From positions 248,001-312,000 of the forward strand of contig NZ_FQWM01000001.1 in the NCBI RefSeq assembly GCF_900129685.1: a stretch of DNA of 64,000 nucleotides. The letters run 5' to 3'. Both the position numbers and the translations under genes were made by a program. Under the pieces are notes generated by a model. It saw only the letters and a list, made by a program, of their open reading frames with translations, did no database searches and was not told where the DNA came from. The DNA is from Cognatishimia maritima (GTDB taxonomy: Bacteria > Pseudomonadota > Alphaproteobacteria > Rhodobacterales > Rhodobacteraceae). Shown here piece by piece: positions 41,497-44,246 of this stretch. Each line of letters begins with the position of its first letter. Positions within the stretch are counted from its first letter, which is position 1.

Positions 41497-42600
41497 TTAA
41501 GATTGTTGCTTAGGGAAGCGGACCCAGAAGGTGGCACCGCCATCTTCATTGTTGAAGTAGCCAATCTTGCCGTTCATGTCCTCGGTCATGCGTTTACAGA
41601 TCGAGAGACCAAGTCCTGTGGACTTGAACTTGCGTTTCTCGCCCGAATTGGTCTGGGTGAACCGTTGGAACATCCGCCCTTCGAGTTCGTCGGGCACGCC
41701 GGCACCTTGATCCCTAACGGCAAACTGCAGCATGTCATCAACGTTGCTGAGTTCCAGCGTGATCTCTGATTGCGTTGGCGAGAATTTCGCCGCGTTTGAC
41801 AGCAGGTTGGCGAGGATCTGTTGCAGACGGTTTACATCTGCACAAATCTTGAGGTTCTCGTCACCCTCGGGTGCAATCAGAGCAATGGATTGCGCATCTT
41901 GCAAATAGCCTTCCATAGAATGCGTCGCATCAGAGGCAACTTCGCGCGCATCCAATGCTTTCATTTCATAAGACAGGTTGCCGTTTTCCAGCGATTTGAA
42001 ATCCAGAAGCTCATTCACCAGATGCAGCAAACGGTTCGAATTCCGCTGCGCCAGTTGCAAGAGGTTGCCAATCGGTCCGCTGAGTTCACCCAATGACCCG
42101 CTGTTGGCCATCTTCAGCGCACCCAACACAGATGTCAGGGGCGTACGCAATTCATGGCTGATCATGGCCACGAATTCATCATTGGCCAGTTCGCGTTCCA
42201 TTTCCTCGGTGACATTCGTATGCACGCCGGTGATGCGCGTCGCCATGCCAGAAGCATCGCGCGCAGAAATACCCGCGTTAGATTGCAGCCAGATGTAGTG
42301 GCCATCCTTGTGGCGAATACGGAAGGTCGATTTGCTGCGCTCTGCTTCACCCGAAAACATCGCCTCGTCTGCGGCGACAACTTTGGGAAGGTCATCAGGA
42401 TGAATACGTTCGAGCCATTCCTGCTGTGGCAGGATTTCAGCGTCCGGGTCCAGACCGATCATCGTTTTCCATGCCGGAGATACTGTTGATCGCCCCGTGA
42501 CCAAATCCACATCAAACACGCCTACATCGGCGTCAATTAGAATTGATGGTATATCCATTGTCACTTGCATGGGTTGGGCCAGCTTATTTACCTGCGTCAA
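41497..42600 (-). CDS. orphan PAS-domain sensor histidine kinase
   Basis: A cytoplasmic kinase of about 367 residues: a PAS/PAC unit (GVFDVDLVTGR to ITGVHTNVTEE), phospho-acceptor His in AMISHELRTPLTSVLGAL, N box ILANLLSNAAKFS, and ATP lid DQGAGVP, TGLGLSICKRM. No membrane helix and no adjacent response regulator. Start choice is uncertain: the TTG at 42600 has GGAGG five bases upstream, whereas ATGs at 42627, 42630, 42690 and 42732 lack good ribosome sites. Confidence 0.85.
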   Translation of the reverse strand: MTQVNKLAQPMQVTMDIPSILIDADVGVFDVDLVTGRSTVSPAWKTMIGLDPDAEILPQQEWLERIHPDDLPKVVAADEAMFSGEAERSKSTFRIRHKDGHYIWLQSNAGISARDASGMATRITGVHTNVTEEMERELANDEFVAMISHELRTPLTSVLGALKMANSGSLGELSGPIGNLLQLAQRNSNRLLHLVNELLDFKSLENGNLSYEMKALDAREVASDATHSMEGYLQDAQSIALIAPEGDENLKICADVNRLQQILANLLSNAAKFSPTQSEITLELSNVDDMLQFAVRDQGAGVPDELEGRMFQRFTQTNSGEKRKFKSTGLGLSICKRMTEDMNGKIGYFNNEDGGATFWVRFPKQQS

Positions 42601-42835
42601 GCCGTCCTCCGTTACTACTCTTAACATCATTACTCTGCTACCGTTGTTACTAATACAGAACTCCGAAACAACGCCAGAAAAAGACGTCATGTTAGAGCCA
42701 TAGGTGGCAAATTGGGCGAAATTCGGTATCAATTGAGGTCATTTCGCAACCCTTTGATAACCTAAGGTTGATCCCAGTCTCAGATTGAGTTTTCAACATT
42801 TTCAAATGTTTGCCCTAACTGTGACGAATTACTCC

Positions 42836-42849
42836 TGTTAGCGCTAGCA
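42836..42849. promoter_or_regulatory. candidate LacI-family operator upstream of eno
   Basis: TGTTAGCGCTAGCA is a 14-bp palindrome with one mismatched pair and a central CG, the usual form of LacI/GalR operators. It lies just before the candidate eno promoter, 70 bases from the start codon. Alphaproteobacterial LacI-type regulators of central carbon genes (CceR/PckR) are plausible binders; the exact consensus could not be checked here. Confidence 0.45.
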
Positions 42850-42855
42850 ACAGTA

Positions 42856-44197
<1,342 letters not shown>

Positions 44198-44216: not shown

Positions 44217-44246
44217 AAAAGCCTCGCTTTCCGCGGGGCTTTTTTC
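44217..44246 (+). terminator. terminator after eno
   Basis: AAAAGCCTCGC / GCGGGGCTTTT stem (one G-T pair) with a TTTCC loop and a T tract. It ends less than 20 bases before the next gene. Confidence 0.85.

Follow-up and report, generated by a model that had tools for sequence, protein, structure and literature searches.

A predicted CceR (GapR) operator before the enolase gene of Cognatishimia maritima and its layout across Rhodobacteraceae

Is the palindromic 14-mer in front of eno, the gene for enolase, an operator of a global carbon regulator, and if so, in which direction would this regulator act on lower glycolysis? The locus lies in a window of 64,000 nucleotides (C3:248001-312000), taken from a genome of 3.28 Mb in 14 contigs. 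Judged by its sequence, the palindrome very probably serves to bind CceR (GapR), the switch between sugar breakdown and synthesis; RSP_1663, or GapR, is presumably the protein later named CceR, and Imam et al. (2015, mBio 6:e02461-14) reportedly also treated the CceR regulon. Our best explanation as a whole, to which we assign a probability of about 0.87, is that the eno 14-mer is a CceR operator, bound by one or both of two paralogous regulators (encoded on contigs C9 and C6) and acting in an activator-like manner until released by 6-phosphogluconate. The features of the locus are compiled in Table 1.

Table 1. Features at the eno locus, with positions counted within the window
Feature	Position	Strand	Basis or remark
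Proximal CceR/GapR-type operator, predicted, TGTTAGCGCTAGCA	42836..42849	.	Read directly; its symmetric form recurs elsewhere
Companion box TGTTTGCCCTAACT, CC centre	42807..42820	.	Weaker second operator or eno-private element
Probable -35, TTTACT	42857..42862	+	21 bp past operator start, the commonest offset in relatives
Probable -10, TATTAA	42879..42884	+	43 bp past operator start, the commonest offset in relatives
eno, enolase, 425 aa	42920..44197	+	TIGR01060, E 5.8e-207; Enolase_N and Enolase_C
Probable intrinsic terminator after eno	44217..44243	+	11-pair stem, then T run

The site occupies a gap of 187 bp with eno on one side and a divergent PAS/histidine-kinase gene on the other, and the eno start codon (ATG at 42920) follows 84 bp downstream. 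From the end of TGTTAGCGCTAGCA it is 7 bp to TTTACT, which is separated by 16 bp from TATTAA. A sigma-70 consensus scan called no promoter before eno, where the match to the consensus is poor; we assigned the promoter because similar blocks stand at the same offsets in relatives. Among 69 registered loci, counted from the operator start, 36 have a -35-like block between +17 and +28 and 47 a -10-like block between +38 and +49; only 35 have both at the expected offsets. The preliminary description, made from this DNA alone, had placed the palindrome directly upstream of a plausible eno promoter and had called it symmetric apart from one pair, with a central CG, and both statements are borne out: six of the seven pairs are symmetric, the CG is in place, and a single mismatch separates TGTTAGCGCTAGCA from its fully symmetric form. 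At the other end of eno, the probable terminator comes from a scan that found 3 such sites against 2.0 expected.

Symmetry by itself is not beyond chance. In the window, 37 14-mers combine a central CG with symmetry in six or more of the seven pairs, and 4 copies of the site occur there at up to 3 mismatches, compared with 4.07 expected. The significance of the site was therefore judged from genome-wide and cross-species tests, in which the symmetric form recurs before carbon-metabolism genes of the same genome and before eno in relatives.

Within the genome, 18 sites lie within 2 mismatches of the symmetric form TGTTAGCGCTAACA. This raw count is no evidence, since a reversed-pattern control also gives 18; none of the control sites, however, has fewer than 2 mismatches, and the ten that were inspected all fall inside ORFs. 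Ten of the 18 sites precede eno, zwf (two genes), gapA, gapB, tpiA, pyk, glk, gntK and a fructokinase-like gene, and the three sites with a single mismatch stand before eno, a zwf and the fructokinase-like gene. Two more precede prpE, encoding propionate-CoA ligase (2 mismatches, 107 bp upstream; L028, G000:C11:170113), and a gene for a Gfo/Idh-type oxidoreductase. For the remaining six no such gene link was seen; one of them is flanked by another LacI gene and a hisD-like gene. Gene names follow NCBIfam; the glk, fructokinase-like, Gfo/Idh and cut-off prpE proteins fall short of its curated cut-offs, and gapA and gapB are labels of our own. Copies before edd, zwf, gap, pyk or pck genes had been named in advance as the telling ones. 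At up to 2 mismatches they do precede zwf, gap and pyk genes; pckA has two boxes with 3 mismatches each, spaced by 20 bp, and edd, by its coordinates, closely follows the zwf of contig C8 on its 3′ side, so placed that the site of this zwf may serve edd too.

Conservation before eno was assessed in upstream regions of 300 bp each. A first sample of 81 regions combined the window with 80 named enolase loci, by record title nearly all from Rhodobacteraceae/Rhodobacterales and one titled as an actinobacterium; 32 of the regions carry the site at up to 2 mismatches, and in 299 random draws of permuted palindromes the mean was 0.07 and the maximum 2. After addition of 89 genomes of different genera and removal of 7 duplicates, 163 distinct regions were available. 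The site occurs in 64 of them at up to 2 mismatches (mean 0.25, maximum 6 for all 59 permuted palindromes) and in 95 at up to 3, and the motif, whose fate upstream of eno in relatives the preliminary description had singled out, is thus kept in a part of the family. Some of the 3-mismatch matches, of the CGTGAGCGCAAACA type, seem by eye to fall where the upstream gene ends, and its coding sequence may have produced them by coincidence. At up to 3 mismatches, 68 of the 163 regions, including one of a Cereibacter, contain no site. It is missing in the two rows that are sister to the window's enolase on the eno tree (L130, L143), and the row nearest to the window by path length (L042) carries it. 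Among the sampled loci, that of L091 (record titled Enemella evansiae, Actinomycetota) is 84% identical to the enolase locus of the window and groups among Rhodobacteraceae on the eno tree; this assembly is probably mislabelled or contaminated.

A second element, not contained in the preliminary description, accompanies the proximal box: TGTTTGCCCTAACT starts exactly 29 bp upstream of the start of TGTTAGCGCTAGCA, and on the plus strand of the gap before eno only these two lie within 5 mismatches of TGTTAGCGCTAACA. The 29-bp spacing recurs in 18 site pairs among the 163 eno upstream regions, next to spacings of 20 and 49 bp (14 and 12 pairs); at least two boxes are present in 30 regions and at least three in 15. 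In Ruegeria/Leisingera loci the array has three boxes in the order TGTTGGCGCAAACA, TGTTAGCCCTAA and proximal box. The 12-mer TGTTAGCCCTAA was found in one copy per genome, before eno, in all nine genomes picked for carrying it there, and the genome of the window has 0 exact copies. We rejected the idea that the CC-centred box is a regulon motif of its own: in the genome of the window it gave 8 matches at up to 2 mismatches on both strands compared with 34 for the reversed pattern, and the exact 12-mer stands solely before eno in the nine carrier relatives. The PAS/histidine-kinase gene (41500-42732, minus strand) is divergent from eno, and both boxes could act on it as well.

The genome has 12 LacI-HTH matches, 11 of them over the cut-off, and none falls inside the window, just as had been stated beforehand. 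Two of the corresponding proteins, encoded on contigs C9 and C6, are GntR-like paralogues, 54% identical to each other, with GntR and IdnR models as their best NCBIfam matches (below cut-off). The C6 gene is divergent from gapB, with a shared site between the two. Relatives of the C9 protein (CceR1) with 73-100% identity were found in all 30 genomes searched, the present one included, and a second, weaker match in 10 of them; the LacI-family structure 3kjx matches this protein with an E value of 1.3e-181. Gene context and regulon content make the C9 protein a candidate counterpart of RSP_1663. An operator-like site (up to 3 mismatches) precedes the C9-type gene in 20 of the 30 genomes, compared with a mean of 0.44 and a maximum of 3 for permuted controls. 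Our genome is among the other ten, the C9 gene having there a 4-mismatch, CC-centred box at -30, ACATAGCCCTAACA, which is a possible autoregulatory box. This box (L017, 30 bp before a GTG start) shares its CC centre with the eno companion, the boxes of the 20 genomes being CG-centred at this place. A further weak LacI-type HTH match, below the cut-off and in a 182-aa frame (L027, G000:C10:105145-105273), lies shortly downstream of pckA, whose own match spans C10:103419-104807.

That eno belongs to the CceR regulon is already published. According to Ravcheev et al. (2014, PMC4052901), GapR (RSP_1663) is present in all 13 Rhodobacteraceae studied, its targets include eno, gapA, gapB, zwf, edd, pykA, pckA and scrK, a similar motif lies upstream of gapR in five genomes, and Roseobacter has a second gapR copy divergent from gapB. 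The system described here is the same in its LacI-family regulator, palindromic operator, target set and gapB-divergent paralogue, and possibly in the autoregulation in some of the genomes. The published consensus comprises 20 bp (PMC4052901), and our 14-mer was compared with it by description. The additional candidates tpiA, glk, gntK and prpE are outside the target list in section 11 of that paper, and the same section makes no mention of arrays or of a CC-centred eno box; the arrays at eno, gapA, gapB and pckA and the far or close position of the eno box by genus are possibly new. For Rhodobacteraceae, CceR is described as sensing gluconate-6P, with a motif taken from RegPrecise (PMC5507952), and 6-phosphogluconate as the effector is taken from PMC4419725 and PMC5507952. 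In a cceR mutant of P. denitrificans, PckA goes down, whereas Pyk, Glk, gluconate kinase and Zwf go up (PMC11323563). Repression of glycolytic and activation of gluconeogenic enzymes there concerns largely the same gene set that bears sites here; the main text of that study names neither eno nor enolase, and its section 8 gives no CceR binding sites. By description, Cra/FruR of enterobacteria and PckR of Rhizobiales are also LacI-family switches between glycolysis and gluconeogenesis, and for PckR the sign of control was predicted from site position, although PckR is no orthologue of GapR and has a different recognition motif (PMC4052901).

Sequence analysis shows the site itself, its repeated occurrence upstream of glycolytic and Entner-Doudoroff genes and its retention at eno in some members of the family, and also that the genome encodes the candidate regulators. 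The regulon copies, the eno conservation, the two candidate CceR proteins and the published listing of eno support the earlier suggestion that lower glycolysis would stand under a LacI-type carbon regulator such as CceR, and in this they lend support, from a further genome, to a tie between lower glycolysis and the CceR carbon switch.

How would the regulator act on eno? In the mechanism that we propose, one or both GntR-like LacI paralogues would bind the eno 14-mer about 48 bp before the predicted transcription start, with the second box 29 bp upstream joining in; from this place upstream of the -35 the action would be activator-like, as at pckA, rather than repressor-like, as at pyk, and 6-phosphogluconate from sugar catabolism would release the regulator from the site.

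The positions of the boxes at other genes give a standard of comparison. In our genome, arrays precede eno (2 boxes), gapA (3), gapB (2) and pckA (2), one gapA and one gapB box having 4 mismatches, and single boxes precede the two zwf genes, pyk, glk, gntK, tpiA, prpE and the fructokinase-like gene; the chance expectation for 300 bp is about 0.013 boxes at 3 mismatches and 0.058 at 4. The pckA boxes are located at -176 and -156, and those of pyk, glk, gntK and one zwf at -39, -35, -45 and -53. Among the 30 genomes, pyk has a single box in 24 and never two, and in 21 of these 24 the box starts at -28 to -67; permuted controls had a mean of 0.75 and a maximum of 10 of 30. At least one pckA box is present in 29 of 30 genomes and a pair in 11, ten of these pairs being 20 bp apart, and the pairs lie upstream of a promoter that looks conserved by eye. 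Since one of the permuted controls for pckA reached 22 of 30 (mean 1.10), the recurrence of the 20-bp spacing carries more weight than the count by itself. The layout rule that emerges sets arrays upstream of the -35 (pckA, gapA, eno) against single boxes near the start (pyk, glk, gntK). We favour activation at eno because its box, upstream of the -35 and with a companion, resembles the pckA layout; we infer this from position alone, and the rule is not clean, as the other zwf (-126) and tpiA (-80) have single, distant boxes and the gapB pair (-77/-53) is near the start codon.

Alternatively, CceR might be an ordinary repressor of eno, hindering RNA polymerase from upstream of the -35 or by joint binding to the two boxes. 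We regard this as possible but somewhat doubtful. Two boxes at a distance of 29 bp could lend themselves to joint binding, eno is grouped with glycolytic targets in PMC4052901, and the -126 site of zwf is likewise far from its start codon; yet both eno boxes are wholly upstream of the probable -35, as at pckA, the product of which falls in the cceR mutant, and single sites near the start are the mark of genes, pyk among them, with products that increase in the mutant.

The eno layout varies across the family. In the 163 regions, the nearest box is at least 70 bp from the start codon in 77, closer in 18 and absent in 68. Within the distant class, TAT[AG] occurs at +36 to +47 in 36 regions and immediately ahead of the box (-12 to -1) in 11; within the close class, found in Yoonia/Loktanella types, TATA[GA] stands within 12 bases before the box in 10 regions and 17-28 bases before it in 4. 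By eye, the upstream gene of several close loci has its stop codon in this TATAG, so that the role of TATAG as a -10 is not certain. When the two layouts are placed on an eno tree of 108 rows (FastTree), they require no fewer than 6 changes, and the close layout requires 8 gains or losses compared with 14.3 for shuffled labels. The far and close positions suggest activation versus repression. It is conceivable, and we put it forward tentatively, that the sign of CceR control at eno changed during Rhodobacteraceae evolution: arrays upstream of the -35 (two boxes here, three in Ruegeria/Leisingera, one of them the eno-private, CC-centred TGTTAGCCCTAA, at fixed spacing) would mark activation, and a single box after a -10-like TATAG near the start codon (Yoonia, Loktanella, Octadecabacter) repression. 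Should the layout rule prove right, one could tell from sequence whether CceR activates or represses a gene, and eno would offer a natural example in which a single regulator has opposite effects on a reversible enzyme in related genera.

It is very unlikely that the eno site belongs to another LacI-type protein, for instance a local sugar repressor, its CceR likeness being only a general likeness within the LacI family. The genome does have 12 LacI-HTH matches, and a separate divergent LacI/hisD-like pair has a related palindrome, TGTAAGCGCTTACA; this differs, however, at one symmetric pair and adjoins a different LacI gene, whereas the zwf, gap, pyk, glk and gapB sites share the TGTTAGCG form, and one of them is placed between gapB and the LacI gene divergent from it. 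Least probable of all, and hardly credible, is a functionless chance palindrome: near-symmetric 14-mers are frequent in the window and 68 relatives lack the site, but its offset to promoter-like blocks is recurrent and its conservation far above that of the permuted controls.

TGTAAGCGCTTACA itself is a perfect palindrome (L008, G000:C3:628439), situated between its LacI gene and the hisD-like gene, and together with this neighbouring LacI gene possibly constitutes a separate local regulator and operator.
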